In this document: positions 34,223 to 60,701 of the stretch, piece by piece
Position numbering within the stretch: position 1 is the stretch's first letter
How the letters are laid out: each line of letters begins with the position of its first letter
NCBI RefSeq assembly: GCF_028737215.1
Contig: NZ_JAQZAM010000009.1
Coordinates: 62,001-126,000 of the forward strand
DNA length: 64,000 bases
Direction: 5' to 3'
Source of the DNA: Actinomycetospora chibensis
GTDB taxonomy: Bacteria > Actinomycetota > Actinomycetes > Mycobacteriales > Pseudonocardiaceae
The notes under the pieces: generated by a model
What the model saw: the letters and a program-made list of their open reading frames with translations, nothing else
The model's database searches: none
Told to the model about the DNA's origin: nothing
Translations under genes and position numbers: made by a program

Positions 34223-35056
34223 ATGACCGAGATCGAGCCGCTCGCGCCGCCCCGTCCCTCCGCCGAGGAGGCCGCGTCCGAGCTGGCCCGGCGCACGGGC
34301 GCCCTGACCCACGACGTCGCCGTGGTGCTCGGCTCCGGCTGGGGGCCCGCGGCCGACGCGTTCGGCCCGCCCGTCGCCGAGGTCCCGTTCTCCGAGCTGC
34401 CCGGCTTCACCCCGCCCGGCGCGCCCGACCACGCCGGGGTGGCGCGCTCGGTGGAGCTCGGCGGTCGGCGGGTGCTGGTACTCCTGGGGCGCACGCACCT
34501 CTACGAGGGCCACGGCCCGGAGCAGGTCGTGCACCCGGTGCGGACGGCCTGCGCGGCCGGCGCCACGAGCGTCGTCCTGACGAACGCCGCCGGCGGGATC
34601 GACCCGTCGTACGCGGTCGGCCAGCCGGTCCTGATCGCCGACCACCTGAACCTCACGGGCCGCTCGCCGCTCGTCGGACCCGAGTTCGTCGACCTCACCG
34701 GCGCCTACGACCCGGGGCTGCGCGCCCTGGCCCGCGCGATCGACCCGGAGCTCGCCGAGGGCGTGTACGCGGGGCTGCCCGGTCCGCACTTCGAGACCCC
34801 GGCCGAGATCCGCATGCTGGCCACCCTGGGCGCCGACCTCGTCGGGATGTCGACGGTGCTCGAGACGATCGCCGCGCGGGCCGCCGGGGTGCGGGTCGCG
34901 GGGGTCGCGCTGGTGAGCAACCCGGCGGCGGGGACCACCGACGCGGCCGTCGACCACCTCGCCGTCATCGACGCCGTGCACGCCTCCGCCGCGCGCACCG
35001 GCGCGCTCCTGGTGCGGCTCGTCGAGGCCGCGCTGCGGGAGAGCCCGACCCCGTGA
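34223..35056 (+). CDS. punA: purine nucleoside phosphorylase
   Basis: A 277-residue trimeric-type PNP that cleaves guanosine, inosine and deoxy forms with phosphate. It shows the N-terminal GSGWGPAAD, the signature [62 protein letters not shown] and [20 protein letters not shown]. All are canonical, including the Glu and Asn region for 6-oxopurines (ALVSNPAAG). It lies 11 bases after the kinase gene. Its stop codon is inside the tandem repeat that precedes the next gene. Confidence 0.94.
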
Positions 35057-50929: not shown

Positions 50930-51112
50930 TCAGGGCCGGTCGTGGTGCGGCGGGCGCTCGGCGTCGTAGCGGCGGCGGTCCTCGTCGCCCGCGGGGACGT
51001 CCGAGGGGTCGCGCTCGTCGGTCGACGACACCGGGTCGTCGCCGAAGATCGCCGCCCGGCGGGCGGCGCGCCGCCGGGCCTCCTCCGCGTCCTCGTGCCC
51101 GCCGGAGCTCAG
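50930..51112 (-). CDS. small acidic protein (60 aa) with CTG start, coupled to mogA
   Basis: An open frame on the minus strand after mogA codes for 60 residues with a helix HEDAEEARRRAARRAAIF, then the conserved-looking DERDPSDVPAGDEDRRRY and a terminal ERPPHHDRP. Small proteins ending this way follow mogA genes in other actinobacteria (as I recall, not verified). There is no ATG, GTG or TTG in frame anywhere upstream; the only usable codon is CTG at 51112, which overlaps the mogA TGA (CTGA) and has GGAAGAG upstream. The mid-frame GTG would delete the helix. Confidence 0.55.
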   Translation of the reverse strand: MSSGGHEDAEEARRRAARRAAIFGDDPVSSTDERDPSDVPAGDEDRRRYDAERPPHHDRP

Positions 51113-51627
51113 TGCTCTTCCATCCCGGAGAGCTCGGCGACGACGTGCGAGATCAGCGGCGTGAGCGTGGCCATGCCGTCGCGCACCGCCGCGCGCGACG
51201 ACGCGAGGTTCACCACGAGGGTGCTGCCCGACACGCCGACCAGCCCGCGCGAGAGCCCGGCGTCGACGGCGCCGGCGGCGAGGCCGGACGCGCGGATGGC
51301 CTCGGCGATGCCGGGGATGGGGCGGTCGAGCACGCCGGCGGTCGCGTCGGCGGTCACCGCGCGCGGCGACACCCCGGTGCCGCCGACGGTGACGACGAGG
51401 TCGACGCCGCCGATCACCGCGGTGTTGAGCGCGTTGCGGATGGCGACCGACTCCCCGGGCACCACGATCGTCCCGTCCACCACCAGGCCGGCCTCACCGA
51501 GCAGCTCGGTGACCAGCGGACCGATCGAGTCCGAGCTCTCCCCCCGGCTGACCCGGTCGTCGACGACGACCACGAGGGCCCGCCCCAGCAACTCCTCCGT
51601 GCCGCCGTGCAGCGGCTGGTTCTCCAT
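51109..51627 (-). CDS. mogA: MogA/MoaB-family molybdenum cofactor protein
   Basis: A 172-residue MoCF-domain protein (adenylates molybdopterin before molybdate insertion). Motifs: VVVVDDRVSRGESSDSIGPL, VVTVGGTGVSPRAVTADAT (the nucleotide-binding GGTG loop), PGIAEAIRASGLAAG, GVSGSTLVVNLASSRAAV. It matches moaB2, next to pepD in mycobacteria. TACGTT seven bases before the ATG suggests a leaderless transcript. Its TGA overlaps the CTG of the small gene, so they are coupled. Confidence 0.92.
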   Translation of the reverse strand: MENQPLHGGTEELLGRALVVVVDDRVSRGESSDSIGPLVTELLGEAGLVVDGTIVVPGESVAIRNALNTAVIGGVDLVVTVGGTGVSPRAVTADATAGVLDRPIPGIAEAIRASGLAAGAVDAGLSRGLVGVSGSTLVVNLASSRAAVRDGMATLTPLISHVVAELSGMEEH

Positions 51628-51686
51628 GGCGCCCAACGTAGTAGGGGTGGATCCGGTGCCGCCGGGTGGTCGTTAGCGTTTCCGGG

Positions 51687-52745
51687 GTGCGCGTACTCCT
51701 GACGGGCGGTGCCGGGTTCATCGGCTCGCACATCGCCGATCTCCTGGTCGAGCGGGGTCACACCCCGGTGCTGCTCGACGCCCTGCTCCCCCAGGCGCAC
51801 ACGGAGGGCAAGGCGCCCGCCTGGCTCGACCGCCACGAGGTCGTGCACGGCGACGTCCGCGACGCGGGACTGCTCGACCGGCTGCTCCCCCGGGTCGACA
51901 CCGTGTGCCACCAGGCCGCGATGGTCGGCCACGGCGTCGACCCCAACGACGGGCCGGACTTCACCCAGAACAACGACGTCGCCACCTCGGTCCTGCTCGC
52001 GGCCATGTTCCGGTCCGGGCACCGCGACCTGGTGATGGCGAGCTCGATGGTCGTCTACGGCGAGGGCCGCTACTCGTGCCCCGAGCACGGGATCGTCCCG
52101 GCACCCGCGCGCACCCAGGCCGACGTCGACGCGGGCCGCTACGACCTCCCGTGCCCGCACTGCGGCCGCGACCTCGGCGGCGAGCTGATCCCCGAGGACG
52201 CCCCGCTCGAGCCCCGCAGCACGTACGCGGCCACGAAGCTCGCCCAGGAGCACCTCGCCGTCGCCTGGGCGCGCGCCACCGGCGGGCGGGTCTGGGCGAT
52301 GCGCTACCACAACGTCTACGGCCCGCGGATGCCGCAGAACACGCCGTACGCGGGCGTCGCGTCGATCTTCCGGTCGTCCCTCGAGCGCGGCGAGGCCCCG
52401 CGCGTGATGGAGGACGGCCGCCAGCGCCGGGACTTCGTGCACGTCGGCGACGTCGCCGCGGCCAATCTCGCCGCGCTGGAGACCCCGGCGGAGGAGGGAC
52501 GCTGCGTCCCGCTCAACGTGTGCTCGGGCGAGGCGCGCACCATCGGCGACCTGGCGACGACCCTCGCCGCCGCCATGGACGGGCCGGCGCCGCAGGTGGT
52601 CGGCGGGGCGCGGCCCGGCGACGTCCGCCACGTCACCGCCGACCCGGCGCGCGCCGCCGCGCTGCTCGGCTACCGCGCGCGCACCCGCTTCGCCGACGGG
52701 ATCGCGGCCTTCGCGACGGACCCTCTGCGCGACGCCGTCGGCTGA
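51687..52745 (+). CDS. NAD-dependent sugar epimerase/dehydratase with zinc-ribbon insert
   Basis: A 352-residue extended SDR. The N-terminal TGGAGFIGSHIADLLVERG, the catalytic tyrosine and lysine in SSTYAATKLAQE-like STYAATKLAQE, and NVYGPRMPQN place it with nucleotide-sugar epimerases. Between strands an insert carries two cysteine pairs, YSCPEHG and LPCPHCGRDL, a small zinc ribbon known in dTDP-L-rhamnose 4-epimerase-like enzymes. The sugar cannot be fixed. TAGCGT seven bases before the GTG indicates a leaderless transcript. It opens a glyco-cluster that runs to 56567. Confidence 0.88.
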   Translation: MRVLLTGGAGFIGSHIADLLVERGHTPVLLDALLPQAHTEGKAPAWLDRHEVVHGDVRDAGLLDRLLPRVDTVCHQAAMVGHGVDPNDGPDFTQNNDVATSVLLAAMFRSGHRDLVMASSMVVYGEGRYSCPEHGIVPAPARTQADVDAGRYDLPCPHCGRDLGGELIPEDAPLEPRSTYAATKLAQEHLAVAWARATGGRVWAMRYHNVYGPRMPQNTPYAGVASIFRSSLERGEAPRVMEDGRQRRDFVHVGDVAAANLAALETPAEEGRCVPLNVCSGEARTIGDLATTLAAAMDGPAPQVVGGARPGDVRHVTADPARAAALLGYRARTRFADGIAAFATDPLRDAVG

Positions 52746-52754
52746 CCACCGGGA

Positions 52755-52777
52755 CGCGCGAACGGGGAGTTCGCGCG
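52755..52777. terminator. bidirectional hairpin between convergent genes
   Basis: A nine-bp stem (CGCGCGAAC with GTTCGCGCG) around loop GGGGA lies ten bases after the epimerase gene and before the end of the convergent membrane gene. Its symmetry suggests it serves both. Confidence 0.65.
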
Positions 52778-52799
52778 CAGAGGAGCAGCGAGTCGGGGG

Positions 52800-52815
52800 A
52801 GCACGCCGATAGGGC
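52800..52815. repeat. dispersed 16-bp repeat, copy B
   Basis: The second copy of the 16-bp unit also found at 48354, again downstream of a plus-strand gene and next to a hairpin. Confidence 0.7.
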
Positions 52816-52841
52816 GTTCGTTGCACCGACCCGGCGAGCAG

Positions 52842-54221
52842 CTACCAGACCGTCAGCAGCAGGTGGTTGATCACGAGCGCGAGGGTCGCCTGGGCGAGCA
52901 GCCACCAACGTGCCGACGGGCGCGGTAGGAGGGCGGCGAGGGGCACGATCCAGACCGCGAAGGGCAGCCAGATCCGCTCGACCTCGGACTTCGAGAGCCC
53001 CGACAGATCGGCGACGGCGATGGCGATCAGCCCCGCCGCGGCGAGGGCCAGCAGGGCGTGCGGCACCGCGCGCGGACGCCAGGCCGCGCGGCGCAGACCC
53101 GCGACGACGGCCGGACCGAGCACCAGCAGCAGGGCGGCGATGTTCCCCCAGACCCAGTACTCGTACGGGCGCAGGAGGCCGTACTCGCCCTCCTGGTAGT
53201 ACCGGACCGTCACCTGCTCGTAGCCCTCGTACCACCAGAACCCGGCGGCGGCGAAGGCGGCGACCACGGCCGCGGCGCCGATCCCGCCGGTGACCAGCGG
53301 GAGGATCCGGCGGCTGCACAGCGCGACGGCGACGGGCAGGAGCCCGGCGAGCACGAGCCCGTAGGAGAAGAACAGCGAGAGCCCGAGGACGACGCCGGCG
53401 AGCAGGCACAGGGCGTGCCCCCCGAGGCCACGGCGCACCGCGCCGAGCGCGAGCAGCGCGACGCCCCAGGCCAGGATCGCCGCGAACATCCCGTCCGCCG
53501 AGACACCCACCCACACCGCGCCCGGGAAGAGCACGCCGAAGGGCAGGTAGGTGCGGGCGAGGTCGCGGTCGCCGAGCGCGGCGAGGGTGATCGCCACCGC
53601 GACCACCGCGGACGCCCCGATCGCCGCCGTGACGACACCGGCGTACTCCCCGCCGGGGAGGCCCGCGCGGTCGAGCAGGACGTAGAAGATCGTCGCGGCG
53701 GGCGGGTGGCCCGACGAGTGCGTCACCAGCGTGTCCGGGGTCTGCCCCGCGATCCGCTCGGCGAACGTCTGCAGGAAGACCGCGATGTCCGGCGTGCGCG
53801 GGATCTCGGCGAGGTACTCGGTCGGCGTCGCCAGCCGCTCGGCGACCCCGACGAACCACCCGTCGATCGTCGCGAGGGCGAAGGTCCACGCCAGGGACGC
53901 GACGTAGGCCACGGCGAGGAGCGGGCCCCAGCGGCACGACCGGGCGACCGCGGGGCCACCGAGGGCGACGACGAGGGCCACCAGGACCGCCGGGACGGTG
54001 CCCGGACCGACGTGCGGGAGCCACTGCGCCAGCAGCGGGGGCCAGCCGACGAGGACGGGGACGCCGGCGTCGATGAGGGCCCAGCCCGCGAGCGCCGCGC
54101 CCGTGACCAGCAGCGATGCCACGGCGACCGCGAGGAGGTCGCCGCGCAGGCGGAACGGGCGGCGGGGCGTGGACGAGGGCTCGTCGGCAGCGCCGGGGCG
54201 GTCCCGCAACACGGTCGTCAT
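52842..54221 (-). CDS. polytopic membrane protein, glycosyltransferase-like (GT-C style)
   Basis: A 459-residue membrane protein with ten or more hydrophobic helices. The first extracytoplasmic loop is long (about 80-190) and contains WTFALATIDGWFVGVAERL, PRTPDIAVFLQTF and THSSGHPPAATIFY; GHPP resembles the HPP-type donor-loop motif of PMT/GT-C enzymes (HPPLSK in pmt). A later loop has YYQEGEYGLLRPYEYWVWG. These features fit a GT-C glycosyltransferase, but no acidic catalytic motif is certain, so function is inferred only. It is divergent from the GT2 gene. Confidence 0.7.
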   Translation of the reverse strand: MTTVLRDRPGAADEPSSTPRRPFRLRGDLLAVAVASLLVTGAALAGWALIDAGVPVLVGWPPLLAQWLPHVGPGTVPAVLVALVVALGGPAVARSCRWGPLLAVAYVASLAWTFALATIDGWFVGVAERLATPTEYLAEIPRTPDIAVFLQTFAERIAGQTPDTLVTHSSGHPPAATIFYVLLDRAGLPGGEYAGVVTAAIGASAVVAVAITLAALGDRDLARTYLPFGVLFPGAVWVGVSADGMFAAILAWGVALLALGAVRRGLGGHALCLLAGVVLGLSLFFSYGLVLAGLLPVAVALCSRRILPLVTGGIGAAAVVAAFAAAGFWWYEGYEQVTVRYYQEGEYGLLRPYEYWVWGNIAALLLVLGPAVVAGLRRAAWRPRAVPHALLALAAAGLIAIAVADLSGLSKSEVERIWLPFAVWIVPLAALLPRPSARWWLLAQATLALVINHLLLTVW

Positions 54222-54379
54222 CACCGGCGGACAGTACGGACGCGCCGTGACCCCCCGGTGAGGAGGGCCGCACGGGCGCCCCGGGTCACCCGTCCGGGGG
54301 TGGACGGCGTGCTCTCGATCGGTAGTGGGCGACCGGACCCCGAACGGCGGGCTCACCAGCGACCTCATAGCGTGACCGG

Positions 54380-55084
54380 GTGGATGGTCGCGTGGACGTG
54401 GTGCTGCCCTGTCTCGACGAGGTCGAAGCGCTGCCGGGGGTCCTCGCCGCCCTGCCCGAGGGGTTCGACGCGGTGGTCTGCGACAACGGCTCGGCCGACG
54501 GCACCCCCGAGCTCGCCGAGCGCCTCGGCGCCCTCGTCGTCCGGGAGGCCCGCAAGGGCTACGGCGCCGCGGTGCACACCGGCCTGGAGGCGACGCGCAC
54601 CGACGTGGTCGCCGTGATCGACGCCGACGGCTCCCTCGACCCGGCCGAGCTCCCGGCGATGGTGCGCCTGCTGCTCGACACCGACGCCGACCTCGTCGTC
54701 GGGCGTCGCGTCCCCTCGTCGCGCGGGGTCTGGCCCTGGCACGCGCGCGCCGGGAACCTCGTGCTCTCCGGTCTCATGCGGGCCCGCGGCGTCGGAGTGC
54801 GCGACATCGCCCCCATCCGCGTCGCCCGCCGGCAGGCTCTGCTCGACCTCGGGATCACCGACCGCGCGTTCGGCTACCCCCTCGAGCTGCTCATCCGCGC
54901 CGGCGCCGCCCGCTGGCGCATCCGCGAGGTCGACGTCGCCTACCGGCCGCGGGCGGGCGGGCGGTCGAAGGTCTCCGGTTCGGTGCGCGGCACCGTGCGC
55001 GCGGTGCGGGACATGGCCCGGGCGGTCGCTCGCACCCGCCCGACGACCGCCGGGCGCACCGACGGCCGGACCACCGCCCGATGA
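54380..55084 (+). CDS. family 2 glycosyltransferase
   Basis: A 234-residue GT-A fold enzyme with DVVLPCLDEVEALPGVLAAL, DNGSADGTPELAERLGA, the DxD region VIDADGSLDPAEL, VGRRVPSSRGVWPWHARAGN and RIREVDVAYRPRAGGRSKVSG. It resembles polyprenyl-phosphate sugar synthases that load a lipid carrier, though it has no membrane helix. TAGCGT six bases before GTG suggests a leaderless transcript. Its stop overlaps the next start (ATGA), the first gene of a three-gene operon. Confidence 0.9.
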   Translation: MDGRVDVVLPCLDEVEALPGVLAALPEGFDAVVCDNGSADGTPELAERLGALVVREARKGYGAAVHTGLEATRTDVVAVIDADGSLDPAELPAMVRLLLDTDADLVVGRRVPSSRGVWPWHARAGNLVLSGLMRARGVGVRDIAPIRVARRQALLDLGITDRAFGYPLELLIRAGAARWRIREVDVAYRPRAGGRSKVSGSVRGTVRAVRDMARAVARTRPTTAGRTDGRTTAR

Positions 55085-55848
55085 GGGGGACGGTCGAACC
55101 GCTGACGAGCCCGCGCACGAACGCGCCCACCATGCGGACCAGTGCGCCGGTGACGAGGGTCGTCCTCGTGCTCGCGAAGGCCCCCGTGGCCGGCCGGGCG
55201 AAGACCAGGCTCATGCCCGCGGCGACCCCGGCCGGAGCGGCCGGCATCGCCGCGGCGGCCCTGCTCGACACCCTCGACGCCGCCCGCTCGGTGCCCGACG
55301 CCCGTGTCGTCGTGGCCCTCGAGGGCGACGTCGCCCGGGCGGAGCGCCACGCCGAGCTGGCCGACGCGCTGGCCGGCACCGTCGTCGTCCCCCAACGCGG
55401 CGACACCCTGGGGCCGCGGATCACGGCGGCGCACGGCGACGTCGCCGAGCTCTTCCCCGCCGCGGTGAGCGTGCAGATCGGGATGGACACCCCTCAGGTC
55501 GACGCCGCGCTGCTCACCGACGCACTCGACCTCGTCACCGCCGACGCGGACGCCGCCCTGGGCCTCGCCCTCGACGGCGGGTGGTGGGCCCTGGCCCTGG
55601 CCGATCCACGTCGGGCCCGTCACATCGCCGACGTCCCCACCTCGCGGGACGACACCGGCGTGGCCACCCTCTCGGCGCTCCGCGCGGGCCACCCGGGGCT
55701 CTCACCCGCCCGGGTGCTCGAGCTGCCGCCGCTCTCGGACGTCGACACCCCTGACGACGCCGTCGCCGTCGCCGACCTCGTCCCCTCCGGCCGCTTCGCC
55801 CGTGCGGTCTCGGACCTGCTCCCCCTTTCCGGAGGCCTCCCACGATGA
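55081..55848 (+). CDS. DUF2064 / TIGR04282-type transferase
   Basis: A 255-residue protein of the DUF2064 family (often named TIGR04282 glycosyltransferase or nucleotidyltransferase-like). Signature: VVLVLAKAPVAGRAKTRLMP, LLDTLDAARSVPDARVVVAL, QRGDTLGPRITAAHGDV, SVQIGMDTPQVDAALL, ALGLALDGGWWALALADPRR. The fold is GT-A-like; the actual reaction is unknown. It is translationally coupled on both sides (ATGA overlaps), which shows it works with the GT2 and methyltransferase genes. Confidence 0.88.
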   Translation: MRGTVEPLTSPRTNAPTMRTSAPVTRVVLVLAKAPVAGRAKTRLMPAATPAGAAGIAAAALLDTLDAARSVPDARVVVALEGDVARAERHAELADALAGTVVVPQRGDTLGPRITAAHGDVAELFPAAVSVQIGMDTPQVDAALLTDALDLVTADADAALGLALDGGWWALALADPRRARHIADVPTSRDDTGVATLSALRAGHPGLSPARVLELPPLSDVDTPDDAVAVADLVPSGRFARAVSDLLPLSGGLPR

Positions 55849-56567
55849 CCCGCGTGACGTCCGCTCCCGACGAGGCCGCCCTGTTCCTCCAGGAGCGCCC
55901 GGCCGACGTGGGCTCGGTGTTCGACGCCGCCCTCGCGGGCCACTGCCAGCGCCTGGTGCGGGGCGACGGGGTCGTGCTGCCGCTCGCCGTGCAGCGCTGG
56001 CACGACGACGCCGACGACGACGACGCCTGGCTGCTCGGACGGTGTACCGGCCCGACGCTCGACCTCGGGTGCGGCCCCGGCCGCCTGGTGGTGGCGCTCG
56101 CGGACCGCGGCGTGCCGGCCCTGGGCGTCGACGTGTCCGTGCAGGCCATCCAGCGCTGCCTCGAGCGCGGCGCCGCCGTGCTGCACCGCGACGCGTTCGA
56201 GCGCCTGCCGGGCGAGGGCCGCTGGCAGCACGTCGTGCTTGCCGACGGCAACATCGGCATCGGCGGGGACCCGGTCACGCTCTTGCGCCGCTGCCGCGCC
56301 CTGCTCGCCGACGGCGGCAGTGTGCTCCTCGAGCTCACGGCGGGCGCCGCTCTCTGGTGCGGCACTGCCTACCTCGAGACCACCGAGGCCGCCGAGACCT
56401 CGGCGGACCCGCTGACCGTCCTCGACCCCTTCGTCGACGGCGGCCCCTGGTTCCCCTGGGCCGTGCTCGGACCGCTCGCGGTGGACGACGTGGCGGCCGA
56501 GGCCGGCCTCGTCGTCGTCGCGCGCGCCGAGGGCGAGCGGTGCTTCGTGGAGCTCGTCCCCGCCTGA
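55845..56567 (+). CDS. class I SAM-dependent methyltransferase
   Basis: A 240-residue methyltransferase. The SAM motif is GPTLDLGCGPGRLVVALADRGVPALGVDV, split here as LDLGCGPGRLVVALAD and ALGVDVSVQAIQRC; motif-IV-like HVVLADGNIGIGGDPVTLLRRCR follows, including the GNIGIGGDP stretch typical of the group that accompanies DUF2064. Substrate unknown; a sugar or lipid acceptor is likely from context. ATGA overlap with the preceding gene. Confidence 0.88.
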   Translation: MTRVTSAPDEAALFLQERPADVGSVFDAALAGHCQRLVRGDGVVLPLAVQRWHDDADDDDAWLLGRCTGPTLDLGCGPGRLVVALADRGVPALGVDVSVQAIQRCLERGAAVLHRDAFERLPGEGRWQHVVLADGNIGIGGDPVTLLRRCRALLADGGSVLLELTAGAALWCGTAYLETTEAAETSADPLTVLDPFVDGGPWFPWAVLGPLAVDDVAAEAGLVVVARAEGERCFVELVPA

Positions 56568-56605: not shown

Positions 56606-58336
56606 TCAGCGCCCGCCGATCAACCGGCTCCCGAGCGTGACGGTGACCTGCCGCGGGGCACCGCCGGGCGTCTGCAGGGCGAGGGTGACGGTCTGACCCG
56701 GCGGCCGCGACTGGATGGCCGCGACGAACGCGTTGGCGTCCTCGATCACCCGGTTGTCCACACGGACGACGACGTCGCCGGCGACGATGCCCGCCGTCTG
56801 GGCGGGCGATCCCGGCTGCACGTCGGCCATGGCGGCGCCGCGCGGCTGGGCGTCGGCCACCCCGACGCCGATGACGGCCTGGGTGGCCTGGCCGGTGTCG
56901 ACGAGCTCGGTGGCCAGGCGGCGGGCCTGGTTGATCGGGATCGCGAATCCGAGACCGATCGAGCCCGCCTCCTGGCCCGTGCCGCCCGTGACGCTGGCGA
57001 TCGCGGTGTTGACCCCGATCACGCGGCCCTGGTCGTCGACGAGCGGGCCGCCGGAGTTGCCGGGGTTGATGGCCGCGTCGGTCTGGATCGCGTCGAGGAC
57101 GCTGCTCTGGCCCGACCCGGAGCCGCCGGCCTGCACGGGGCGCTGGAGCGCGCTGACGATGCCGGTGGTCACCGTGCCGGAGAGCCCCAGCGGGGAGCCG
57201 ACCGCGATGACGGTCTGGCCCTGCACGAGCTCGTCGGAGTTGCCGAGGCTCGCGGCCCGCAGGTTGGTCACGCCGCTCGCCCGCACGACGGCGATGTCCG
57301 CCGCCGGCGCGGTGCCGACGATCTGGACGGGCGCGGCGCGGCCGTCGGAGAAGATCGCCTCCAACCCCCCGCCCTGGCCGGCCTGCAGGACGTGGTTGTT
57401 GGTCATGATCAGGCCGTCGGCGGAGAGCACGACCCCCGAGCCCTCGCCGGCCGCGCCGCGGATCTGCACGGCGCTGGGCAGCACGTTCGCCGCCACCGCC
57501 TCGATCGATCCGGGCGCCGCGTCGGTGGGCCCCTCGTTCGGCACGGGCTCGTCGAGCGCGGTGCCCTGCGAGGAGCTCGACGAGCTGCCGATGCCGCCGA
57601 TGGCCACGGCCGACAGGGCCCCACCGATGAGGCCCGCGACGAGCGCCAGGGCGACGAGCGCGAGGGTCCCGAGCCGCCGCCGGGGCGGGGTCGATCCACC
57701 GCCGCCCCCGGGGGCCGCGCCGCCGCCCCAGCCGCCGCCCGGGTCGCGGGGGTGGCCGCCGGGCGGGGTGACGGGCCCGGCGCCCACCGCGCCCCAGCCG
57801 TAGCCACCCTGCTCGGTCGGGGGGCCCTGCGCGGGGCCGCCGTACCCGCCCGGGCTGCCCACCGGCCCGCCACCCTGCCCGCCACCCTGCCCGCCGTAGC
57901 CACCGGGGCCGTCGTAGGTGCCGACGGGCGCCTCACGGGTCTGCGGCGCGGTCGCGGGGTAGGACGGCATCGGACCGAAGGCCGTCGCGCCGGCCGCGCC
58001 GGAGGGGTTCCCGAGGCCCTGGGGCTGCTGGGTGACCTGGGTGGGCGCGCTGTAGGGCGAGGCACCGCCGGTGGGCTGCGCCCCGGGCTGGGCGTCGTAC
58101 TCGCGACCCGTGCCCTCGGCCCAGCGCACACCGCCGGGCCCGGCCGGGCGGCCGGTCGGGCCGTCGCCACCGTCCGGACCCGGCGCCGCCGGACCGGTGG
58201 CCGTCGGGCCCATGGCCGTGGACGACGTCGGCGACGAGGGACCCGTGGGAGCGGTGGACGTCGGTCCGGGCGGCACGTCGGATCCCGACGGGCCGGACCC
58301 GTTCGGGGCGGCGGACGCGGCGTCGTTCTCGCTCAT
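56606..58336 (-). CDS. pepD: HtrA-family membrane serine protease with PDZ
   Basis: A 576-residue protease. A 215-residue disordered cytoplasmic Pro/Gly/Thr-rich segment (Gly-Gly-Tyr repeats at about 145-170) precedes a membrane helix (about 221-249), then an extracytoplasmic trypsin-like domain with H315 (MTNNHVL), D347 (ADIAVV) and S428 (PGNSGGPLV), and a PDZ domain at about 475-565 (GSPAQTAGIVAGDVVVRVD). Such PepD/HtrA2 proteins police envelope proteins under MprAB control in mycobacteria. GAGGCTGGGGGG precedes the ATG. Confidence 0.93.
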   Translation of the reverse strand: MSENDAASAAPNGSGPSGSDVPPGPTSTAPTGPSSPTSSTAMGPTATGPAAPGPDGGDGPTGRPAGPGGVRWAEGTGREYDAQPGAQPTGGASPYSAPTQVTQQPQGLGNPSGAAGATAFGPMPSYPATAPQTREAPVGTYDGPGGYGGQGGGQGGGPVGSPGGYGGPAQGPPTEQGGYGWGAVGAGPVTPPGGHPRDPGGGWGGGAAPGGGGGSTPPRRRLGTLALVALALVAGLIGGALSAVAIGGIGSSSSSSQGTALDEPVPNEGPTDAAPGSIEAVAANVLPSAVQIRGAAGEGSGVVLSADGLIMTNNHVLQAGQGGGLEAIFSDGRAAPVQIVGTAPAADIAVVRASGVTNLRAASLGNSDELVQGQTVIAVGSPLGLSGTVTTGIVSALQRPVQAGGSGSGQSSVLDAIQTDAAINPGNSGGPLVDDQGRVIGVNTAIASVTGGTGQEAGSIGLGFAIPINQARRLATELVDTGQATQAVIGVGVADAQPRGAAMADVQPGSPAQTAGIVAGDVVVRVDNRVIEDANAFVAAIQSRPPGQTVTLALQTPGGAPRQVTVTLGSRLIGGR

Positions 58337-58392: not shown

Positions 58393-59955
58393 ATGGGGGA
58401 AGCTGGTGGGGTGGAGCGTCTCGGAGCCGGCCCGACGAGCGGTGGCCGGACGACCCTCGAGGACCCGGCCCACACCTCGGCCGACGGGTCCGTGGCACCC
58501 ACCGGTGCGCCCGGCGAGCGGCGCGACGACGAGGAGGAGGCGGCCCCGCCCGGCCTCATCCGCCACGTCCTGCAGGGCATCCCGTTGCGGCGGCGGGTGG
58601 GCATCCTCGTCTCGGTCGGCGGCGGGCTGCTCGTGGCGCTGATCGCCGCCGCGGTGTTCTTCACCGCGCAGCGCGCGCTCTACGACCAGCTCGACGAGAG
58701 CCTGGTGCAACGCGCGACGGTCGCGGCGTCCGGCGACCTCGCCGATCCCTCGCTGCTTCTGCGGGTCTCGTCCGACGCGCTCGCCGCCGGCGAGGTGCGG
58801 GTGGCGATCGTGACCGCCGGCGGCGAGTTCGTGACGCTCCGGGGCAACAGCCCGCCCCTCGGCGCCGCCGAGGTGTCCGCCGCCCGCCGGAGCCCGCCGA
58901 CGTCGGTGCGCACCGGGGTGATCGACGGCGAGGTCTACCGGGTCGTCGCCGTCTACGCGGGCGAGGACCGGGCGCTCGTGCTGGCCCAGGAGCTCGACCC
59001 GACGCGGCGGACGCTGTCGAAGCTCGCCGTGGTGCTCCTCGTCGCCGGCGCCTCGGGCGTCCTGCTCGCCGCGCTGACCGGCGTGGCCATCGCCCGCGCC
59101 GGGCTCCGGCCCGTCGAGCGGCTGATCTCGGCGACCGAGCGCGTCGCGCGCACCGGCGACCTGCGCCCGATCCCGGTCTCCGGCGGCGACGAGATCGCCC
59201 GCCTGACCAGCAGCTTCAACGCGATGCTCGCGGCGCTCTCGTCGTCCATCGACCGACAACGCCGGCTCGTGGCCGACGCCGGGCACGAGCTGCGCACGCC
59301 GCTGACCTCGCTGCGGACGAACCTCGAGCTGCTCATGGCGTCCGAGCAGGCGTCGCACCGTCCCGACGCGCCCCGGCTCTCCGAGCAGGACCGCGCCGAG
59401 CTGCAGGCCGACCTGCGCGCGCAGGTCGACGAGCTCGCCACCCTCATCGGCGACGTCGTCGAGCTCGCCCGCGACGACCCGCCCGAGGTGGCCGCCGAGC
59501 CCCTCGACCTCGCCGACGTCGTGGAGCGCGCGCTCGACCGCGCGCGGCGCCGCGGGGTGGCCGAGAACGTGACCTTCGACGTCGACCTCGCGTCGTGCGA
59601 GGTCACCGGGGACGCGAACGCCCTCGAGCGGGCGGCCCTCAACCTGCTCGACAACGCCGCCAAGTGGAGCCCGCCGGGCGGGCGGGTGCGGGTGACGCTG
59701 CGCGCCGGCGTCGCTCCGGAACGACCCGGGACGGCGGTGCTCGAGGTGGCCGACGCGGGCCCCGGGATCGCCGACGAGGAGCTCGACCTGGTCTTCGAGC
59801 GCTTCTACCGCTCGTTGGACGCCCGCACGATGAGCGGCTCGGGGCTCGGGCTCTCGATCGTCGCCCAGGTCGCCGAGCGCCACCACGGCGGCGTCTCGGC
59901 CAGCCGTGCCCCCGAGGGCGGCGCGCTCCTGCGCTTCTGGATCCCGCGCAGCTGA
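58393..59955 (+). CDS. mprB: sensor histidine kinase, MprB type
   Basis: A 520-residue kinase: an N-terminal cytoplasmic stretch, a membrane helix at about 72-95, a sensor domain, a second helix (about 213-237), HAMP, the H-box with H298 (ADAGHELRTPLTSLRTNL), N-box LNLLDNAAKWSP, G1 DAGPGI and the SGLGLSI G2 box. It resembles MprB, which answers envelope stress. The cognate regulator (60000) and PepD (56606) are on the other strand, so it has been reoriented relative to the mycobacterial operon. An alternative GTG start lies at 58411. Confidence 0.92.
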   Translation: MGEAGGVERLGAGPTSGGRTTLEDPAHTSADGSVAPTGAPGERRDDEEEAAPPGLIRHVLQGIPLRRRVGILVSVGGGLLVALIAAAVFFTAQRALYDQLDESLVQRATVAASGDLADPSLLLRVSSDALAAGEVRVAIVTAGGEFVTLRGNSPPLGAAEVSAARRSPPTSVRTGVIDGEVYRVVAVYAGEDRALVLAQELDPTRRTLSKLAVVLLVAGASGVLLAALTGVAIARAGLRPVERLISATERVARTGDLRPIPVSGGDEIARLTSSFNAMLAALSSSIDRQRRLVADAGHELRTPLTSLRTNLELLMASEQASHRPDAPRLSEQDRAELQADLRAQVDELATLIGDVVELARDDPPEVAAEPLDLADVVERALDRARRRGVAENVTFDVDLASCEVTGDANALERAALNLLDNAAKWSPPGGRVRVTLRAGVAPERPGTAVLEVADAGPGIADEELDLVFERFYRSLDARTMSGSGLGLSIVAQVAERHHGGVSASRAPEGGALLRFWIPRS

Positions 59956-59999: not shown

Positions 60000-60701
60000 T
60001 CAGGGCGGCGTCTCCCGCAGCACGTAGCCGACGCCTCGCACGGTGTGGATGAGGCGGGGCTCGGCCTCCGCCTCGGTCTTCCGGCGCAGGTAGCCGACGT
60101 AGACCTCGAGGGCGTTGCCGGTGGTCGGGAAGTCGTAGCCCCAGACGTCCTCGAGGATGCGGCTGCGCGTCAGCACGCGACGCGGGTTGGCCATGAACAG
60201 CTCGAGCAGCGAGAACTCGGTGCGCGTGAGGCTGATCGGGCGCTCACCGCGGCGGACCTCGCGGGTCACGGGGTCGAGCGAGAGGTCGGCGAAGCGCAGG
60301 GGCTCGGGGTCGGGCGTACCCGGCTCGTCCGGCACCCGGCGACGCAGCAGCGCCCGCAGCCGGGCGAGGAGCTCCTCGAGCGCGAAGGGCTTGGCGAGGT
60401 AGTCGTCGGCGCCGGCGTCGAGACCGGCCACGCGGTCGGAGACCGCCTCGCGCGCCGTGAGCACCAGCACGGGGATGTCGTCGCCGGCGTTGCGCAGCCG
60501 CCGGCACACCTCGAGGCCGTCGACCCGCGGCATCATCACGTCGAGCACGAGGGCGTCGGGGCGCTGTCCCGTCTCGCCGGACATGGCGTCCAGCGCCTGC
60601 TGCCCGTCCGACGCCAGCTCGACCTGGTAGCCGTTGAAGGCGAGCGAGCGACGCAGGGAGTCCCGCACGGCCCGGTCGTCGTCCGCGACGAGGATGCGCA
60701 T
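60000..60701 (-). CDS. mprA: OmpR-family response regulator, MprA type
   Basis: A 233-residue regulator. Receiver: [16 protein letters not shown], phosphoacceptor D54 ([12 protein letters not shown]), T82 region [14 protein letters not shown]104 in ADDYLAKPF. Winged helix: [20 protein letters not shown] and TVRGVGYVL. It is most like MprA, which controls stress sigma factors and pepD in mycobacteria. It ends next to the 40-bp hairpin shared with mprB. Confidence 0.93.

Follow-up and report, generated by a model that had tools for sequence, protein, structure and literature searches.

Methylthioxylose (MTX) capping of lipoarabinomannan is the closest described relative of the gene set considered here. 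The caps are added by MtxS (Rv0539) and MtxT (Rv0541c) (PMC8780516, PMC11127046), MtxS making MTX-P-C50 and MtxT transferring MTX (PMC8780516); Rv0541c is listed among the GT-C enzymes (PMC3229680), and the MTX donor derives from methylthioadenosine (MTA; PMC11127046). A three-component pentofuranose glycosylation system, described in PMC11127046, also combines a polyprenyl-phosphate pentose donor with a GT-C enzyme outside the cytoplasm; it starts from phosphoribosyl pyrophosphate and employs a UbiA-type synthase and a MATE flippase, whereas a GT2 enzyme and, probably, a nucleotide sugar would be used in the set analyzed here. This set lies at positions 51,687 to 56,567 of a 64,000-nucleotide stretch (the window) of Actinomycetospora chibensis (RefSeq assembly GCF_028737215.1, contig NZ_JAQZAM010000009.1, positions 62,001 to 126,000 of the forward strand). 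It consists of genes for a sugar epimerase, a polytopic membrane protein (MEM), a GT2 glycosyltransferase, a DUF2064 protein and a methyltransferase; all five are present, flanked by a mog-type gene and the gene for an HtrA/PepD protease, as the preliminary description of this DNA had placed them. We assign a probability of roughly 0.7 to the reading that the cluster is an Mtx-type system for extracytoplasmic, lipid-linked pentose glycosylation. In all probability its products build an unusual pentose, attach this to a lipid of the membrane and pass it on to a glycan of the cell surface.

The link to the Mtx system comes from locus L167 of the mycobacterium-like genome G087, which reads fabH, menA, MTA phosphorylase (MTAP), epimerase, a DUF7937 membrane protein, a 605-residue protein without a match in the families searched, GT2, DUF2064, MEM, menE and a PHO4 transporter. 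This order corresponds to that of the M. tuberculosis region Rv0533c-Rv0545c, the correspondence being one of gene order and not of sequence. In all four other genomes compared, the best match of the window GT2 was the cluster GT2 (215-239 bits, vs 51-68 for the next match), which in G087 lies at the Mtx-type locus, and MEM had a single match in G087 (E 2e-164), in the place of the last gene of the Mtx-type run of L167. Because each is a unique best match and the synteny agrees with the tuberculosis order, we equate GT2 with MtxS and MEM with MtxT as probable counterparts, on a comparison made at the level of G087. The nearest known relative of the cluster is therefore the pathway that decorates a tuberculosis glycolipid, and the core is not the undescribed route that had been suggested, a label that may still apply to the methyltransferase and the molybdoenzyme. 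The suggested course of events, in which a sugar donor is made, loaded on a lipid carrier and transferred, fits an Mtx-type system, the suggested methylation of the transferred sugar being hypothetical. Like MtxS/MtxT capping, the set pairs a counterpart GT2 with a membrane transferase, and in the mycobacterium-like locus it has the epimerase, DUF2064 and MTAP as neighbours; unlike it, the window cluster includes a methyltransferase, no MTAP was found in the window genome, and the set also occurs in taxa such as Streptomyces (L253), in which lipoarabinomannan is not expected. Since the window copy lacks MTAP, one defining feature of the methylthioxylose pathway, the system is called Mtx-type here and not a methylthioxylose pathway.

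A sequence of five steps may be proposed. The DUF2064 protein would activate a pentose-1-phosphate to a nucleotide-pentose, the substrate in MTAP-bearing relatives presumably being 5-methylthioribose-1-phosphate, and the ribbon-bearing epimerase would invert one carbon, which in the Mtx case would turn the ribo into the xylo form. GT2 would then transfer the pentose to polyprenyl phosphate, some carrier would flip the lipid-linked pentose outside, and MEM, acting as a GT-C enzyme, would place the pentose on a cell-envelope glycan; the GT2 and GT-C steps are reported for the tuberculosis relatives in the papers cited above. The methyltransferase and a membrane molybdoenzyme of the twin-arginine translocation (Tat) type with a small membrane partner may act as companions. 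The genes, their motifs, their synteny and their co-conservation throughout the phylum, on which this proposal builds, are direct observations.

The five families are co-conserved across actinobacteria, and the set is not unique to the window genome. A first search found DUF2064 in 49 of 61 genomes including that of the window, and when 51 loci were searched by tblastn with the seven window proteins, each of the other four families was located in between 36 (MEM) and 49 (GT2) of these loci. Profile models built from the loci of this first survey recovered the complete set of five families no more than 9 kb from DUF2064 in 112 of 175 loci (own genus, 17/17; further relatives, 15/33; order-wide, 20/38; named loci outside the genus, 47/64; phylum-wide, 13/23), and singly GT2 was present near DUF2064 in 169, the epimerase in 151, the methyltransferase in 149 and MEM in 141. 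Loci were kept when their DUF2064 was detected with more than 150 bits (34, 40, 64 and 32 loci leaving 33, 38, 64 and 23), those truncated at a contig end were scored as misses, the sets overlap partly because some named loci belong to the same genomes as loci of other sets, and relatives are non-independent. The phylum-wide search gave a DUF2064 match in 71 of 246 genomes; none of nine lower-scoring loci (L234-L242) had the full set, although an epimerase and a GT2 lie nearby in L235 and an MTAP in L236. Among 199 genomes of the order, eight of which had a weak DUF2064 match (E 8e-8 or worse) and were counted as lacking it, MEM occurred in 106, namely 105 of 117 with DUF2064 and 1 of 82 without (Fisher p ~2e-41, kinship ignored). 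A chance grouping of five unrelated housekeeping genes, which would agree with the opposite strand of MEM and with the variation of gene order between taxa, is barely conceivable and was refuted by these counts together with the presence of MEM and the molybdoenzyme, which tracks DUF2064 over the 199 genomes. Thus the idea that the five families belong together, which the preliminary description had staked on their co-occurrence elsewhere, survived the neighbourhood survey.

Twelve of these genomes had DUF2064 but no MEM, and a GT87-type membrane protein, possibly a substitute terminal transferase, was present in five of the nine loci inspected (L063, L075, L078, L191 and L197). In mycobacterium-like G184 (C1, near 787-790 kb), DUF2064 and MEM matched only in pieces, with intact copies in its relatives, and L215, the second DUF2064 locus of G391, holds an extra pair of DUF2064 and methyltransferase without other cluster genes. 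The system is also carried on some large plasmids. On plasmid NZ_CP046100.1 of Rhodococcus sp. AQ5-07 (L254, 6272-13409), eight co-directional genes form one run in the order molybdoenzyme, small membrane protein, methyltransferase, MEM, MTAP, epimerase, GT2 and DUF2064, and the five window proteins were matched there at 43-54% identity; a GtrA-type gene lies near this run on the opposite strand. Further plasmid copies were observed in Mycobacteroides abscessus (NC_021278.1, L255) and Streptomyces sp. NBC_01237 (L253).

Gene content bears on which sugar may be handled in A. chibensis itself. In 29 of 175 loci MTAP lay no more than 9 kb from DUF2064, in varying places (ahead of the epimerase, past the molybdoenzyme pair, divergent from the epimerase or following the small membrane gene), and over the 199 genomes MTAP (E <1e-40) tracks DUF2064 only loosely (73/117 with, 23/82 without). 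An MTA-derived donor, as expected of a true Mtx system, finds no MTAP in the window genome: no TIGR01694 match scored above cut-off in this assembly (97% complete), and the one match was a purine nucleoside phosphorylase (PNP; 34223-35056, + strand), which was accordingly rejected as an MTAP. With MTAP missing, the donor may not be a methylthio sugar. The same machinery might instead handle another pentose in the family of the window, for instance one from ribose-1-phosphate, perhaps O-methylated by the methyltransferase; MTAP went undetected in 23 of that family's 27 cluster genomes and the methyltransferase is near DUF2064 in most loci, but it also occurs in MTAP-bearing loci and is therefore no substitute for MTAP, and the molybdoenzyme is retained without obvious need, so that we rate this alternative at somewhat under even odds. 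It is also possible, if slightly less likely, that the sugar is truly 5-methylthio-xylofuranose made without MTAP, for example by the PNP acting on MTA. DUF2064, GT2 and most epimerase motifs are common to MTAP-bearing and MTAP-lacking lineages, and a molybdoenzyme, kept in 21 of the 27 cluster genomes and in that of the window, would suit a thioether or sulfoxide; however, the phosphorylase-family search of the window genome gave only the PNP and a putative adenosine monophosphate nucleosidase (so read from its translation), and no PNP of this type is known to use MTA. The PNP gene, the only nucleoside phosphorylase gene recognised in this genome, is also a possible source of pentose-1-phosphate.

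Several observations weigh against an Mtx-type system as the function of the cluster. At least one of the five families was missing near DUF2064 in 63 of 175 loci (some of them cut by contig ends), and MTAP was not detected in the 23 family genomes mentioned, that of the window included. In addition, no flippase was found, one candidate having been tried: phmmer with the Rhodococcus GtrA gave 0 matches in cluster loci, and GtrA was rejected as a regular cluster flippase. The putative assignment of MEM to GT-C draws on its counterpart status, no profile or PDB match having been found, and the tuberculosis link draws on gene order.

The epimerase (51687-52745, + strand; PF01370, 2e-45) is an NAD-dependent enzyme of the short-chain dehydrogenase/reductase type, resembles GalE-type enzymes and reached the curated cut-off of none of the 20 NCBIfam families listed. 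Its zinc ribbon, proposed earlier, corresponds to a real Cys/His insert in the alignment (52077-52163, + strand; C131, H134, C156 and C159), whose motif CxxHG...CxxC is carried in full by 118 of 144 cluster epimerases; among the misses listed (15 of 26) are copies ending in CxC, mycobacterium-like copies minus one Cys and a few without the first motif. The enzyme corresponds to the epimerase found at the mycobacterium-like Mtx locus and would epimerise a nucleotide-pentose. MEM (52842-54221, - strand; alternative start GTG at 54224) has 11 hydrophobic segments in a simple scan and is proposed as the counterpart of MtxT, i.e., a putative extracytoplasmic pentosyltransferase of the GT-C type. 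It had no Pfam or NCBIfam match and no PDB match better than E 1, and hhalign against GT87 gave a probability of only 4%, leaving GT87 without support as a detectable homologue. GT2 (54380-55084, + strand; alternative start 54392; PF00535, 4.5e-21) matches the dolichol-phosphate mannose synthase 5mlz (1.5e-8), and a DxD-type motif in 163 of 164 GT2 proteins places the family with synthases of the dolichol-phosphate-sugar type; as the counterpart of MtxS it would be a polyprenyl-phosphate pentosyltransferase.

The DUF2064 protein (55081-55848, + strand; alternative start 55132; PF09837, 1e-18) is nucleotidyltransferase-like, with the motifs KxPxGxxKTR[LM] in 164 and GMDTPQ in 162 of 169 members and an AlphaFold model of high predicted local confidence (pLDDT 93.3). 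In 10 lower-scoring DUF2064 loci, the site of the second motif reads GADxP (5) or GTDxP (3) or gave no match (2). Its profile matches 3cgx (5e-28) and the 2-phospho-L-lactate guanylyltransferase 6bwg (2.6e-4), and it shares KTRL and Asp motifs with 3cgx and the CofC/FbiD-type guanylyltransferases, but differs from the latter by its own GMDTPQ motif and by a CofC score of 23 bits against a cut-off of 105. It is proposed to be a nucleotidyltransferase making a nucleoside diphosphate-pentose, while action as a glycosyltransferase may be considered instead. NCBI family names suggest arsenosugar biosynthesis for relatives of two of the proteins, TIGR04282 being the best match of DUF2064 and TIGR04283 also matching GT2, and one plasmid DUF2064 is annotated as an arsenosugar protein; arsenosugars are likewise 5-substituted pentofuranoses. 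This alternative was rejected as highly improbable, given that both scores lie under the cut-offs (93.4 vs 134 and 33.6 vs 182 bits) and that the annotated features of two plasmid stretches include no arsenic gene beyond that family name; the nine lower-scoring DUF2064 loci without the full set also speak against it. The methyltransferase (55845-56567, + strand; PF13649, 9e-9) is of the class I S-adenosylmethionine-dependent type, with DxGCGPGR in 141 of 142 cluster members, and no specific relative was found for it. The last three genes overlap by ATGA as described earlier, both junctions (55081-55084 and 55845-55848, + strand) being visible in the sequence. The five genes do not form one operon, because that of MEM is on the opposite strand.

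The molybdoenzyme and a small membrane protein (S10/S22) are companions of the set, both being near the cluster in 108 of the 175 loci, neither in 67 and one alone in 0. Genome-wide, the molybdoenzyme (E up to 1e-60) accompanied the cluster DUF2064 in 102 of 117 genomes and was detected in none of the 82 that lack this DUF2064; within the family of the window it was present in 21 of 27 cluster genomes and 0 of 13 others; in the window genome it is encoded on contig C14 with S22 adjoining, outside the window, and in G087 it is grouped with S22 and a methyltransferase match away from the Mtx locus. Its alignment shows a twin Arg, an invariant Cys in CVEGW, which we take to be the Mo ligand, and an invariant His in the membrane part, and its Mo domain is related to sulfite oxidases and 1xdq. 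Published accounts give the same three features for Sco3746, a protein that fusions showed to be exported by Tat and that its authors likened to MsrPQ (PMC5449189). Going by such descriptions, the molybdoenzyme would belong with Sco3746 and with Rv0218 (PMC5800017, PMC2936551). It differs from MsrP plus MsrQ in being one fused chain tied to a sugar cluster and in scoring under the cut-offs of SoxC and MsrP (20.7 to 31.6 vs 207 bits for MsrP in three members scanned).

The molybdoenzyme and its partner likely carry out redox chemistry on the exported product. One methionine sulfoxide reductase reportedly has a carbohydrate as its substrate. MTX also occurs as a sulfoxide (PMC8531672), and these two reports allow the guess that the enzyme acts on the sulfur of the sugar. 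A wider scenario, which we consider speculative and rather unlikely, would be that thio-sugar caps are widespread in actinobacteria and that the thioether sugar is reduced (or oxidised) outside the cytoplasm by the fused molybdoenzyme of Sco3746/Rv0218 type together with its small membrane partner, with the methyltransferase in the same module; surface glycans would then bear a renewable sulfur redox group, the methylthio-sugar being converted to its sulfoxide and reduced back with membrane electrons.

The flanking genes lie outside the system: a MogA/MoaB-type gene (51109-51636, - strand; PF00994, 8e-22; possible ATG start 51627) and the HtrA/PepD protease gene (56606-58336, - strand; TIGR02037, 5e-70). 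The two genes had been said to adjoin in mycobacteria, and the order mprA-mprB-pepD-moaB2, with pepD beside a mog-like gene, is indeed in print (PMC11656743). Insertion between them, claimed for the window, was also found in 19 of 51 loci of relatives (15 of 17 in the own genus, plus L049, L054, L055 and L081) but does not hold as a general placement, the set being located elsewhere in other taxa; it is a local detail of the family of the window, not unique to the window genome. Beside pepD are a histidine kinase (58411-59955, + strand) and a response regulator (60000-60701, - strand), which may be related to MprAB, the pair next to the mycobacterial pepD, but are oriented differently. This pair accounts for the own-genus two-component hits near the cluster (13 of 17) and was not adopted as a two-component system of the cluster itself, since other taxa have a pair inside the cluster whereas here it lies beyond pepD. 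A promoter and terminator scan of the region found nothing and was uninformative at 75% GC, and no island in GC content was visible at the cluster.

What is new is the spread of the system through the phylum, the confinement of a Tat-type membrane molybdoenzyme to cluster genomes and the eight-gene Rhodococcus plasmid run with MTAP. A search of open-licence literature showed no publication that connects MTX to DUF2064, to the molybdoenzyme or to non-mycobacterial actinobacteria, which is a weak negative. A 2024 paper leaves in doubt whether MTX addition extends beyond lipoarabinomannan assembly (PMC11127046), and because the set occurs across the phylum, a named Streptomyces and a Rhodococcus plasmid among its carriers, this question becomes directly testable in laboratory actinomycetes. 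DUF2064 gains a concrete candidate reaction, and presence and absence over 199 genomes tie to surface-glycan chemistry a family of membrane molybdoenzymes that has no known substrate and that, going by published descriptions, includes Sco3746 and Rv0218.

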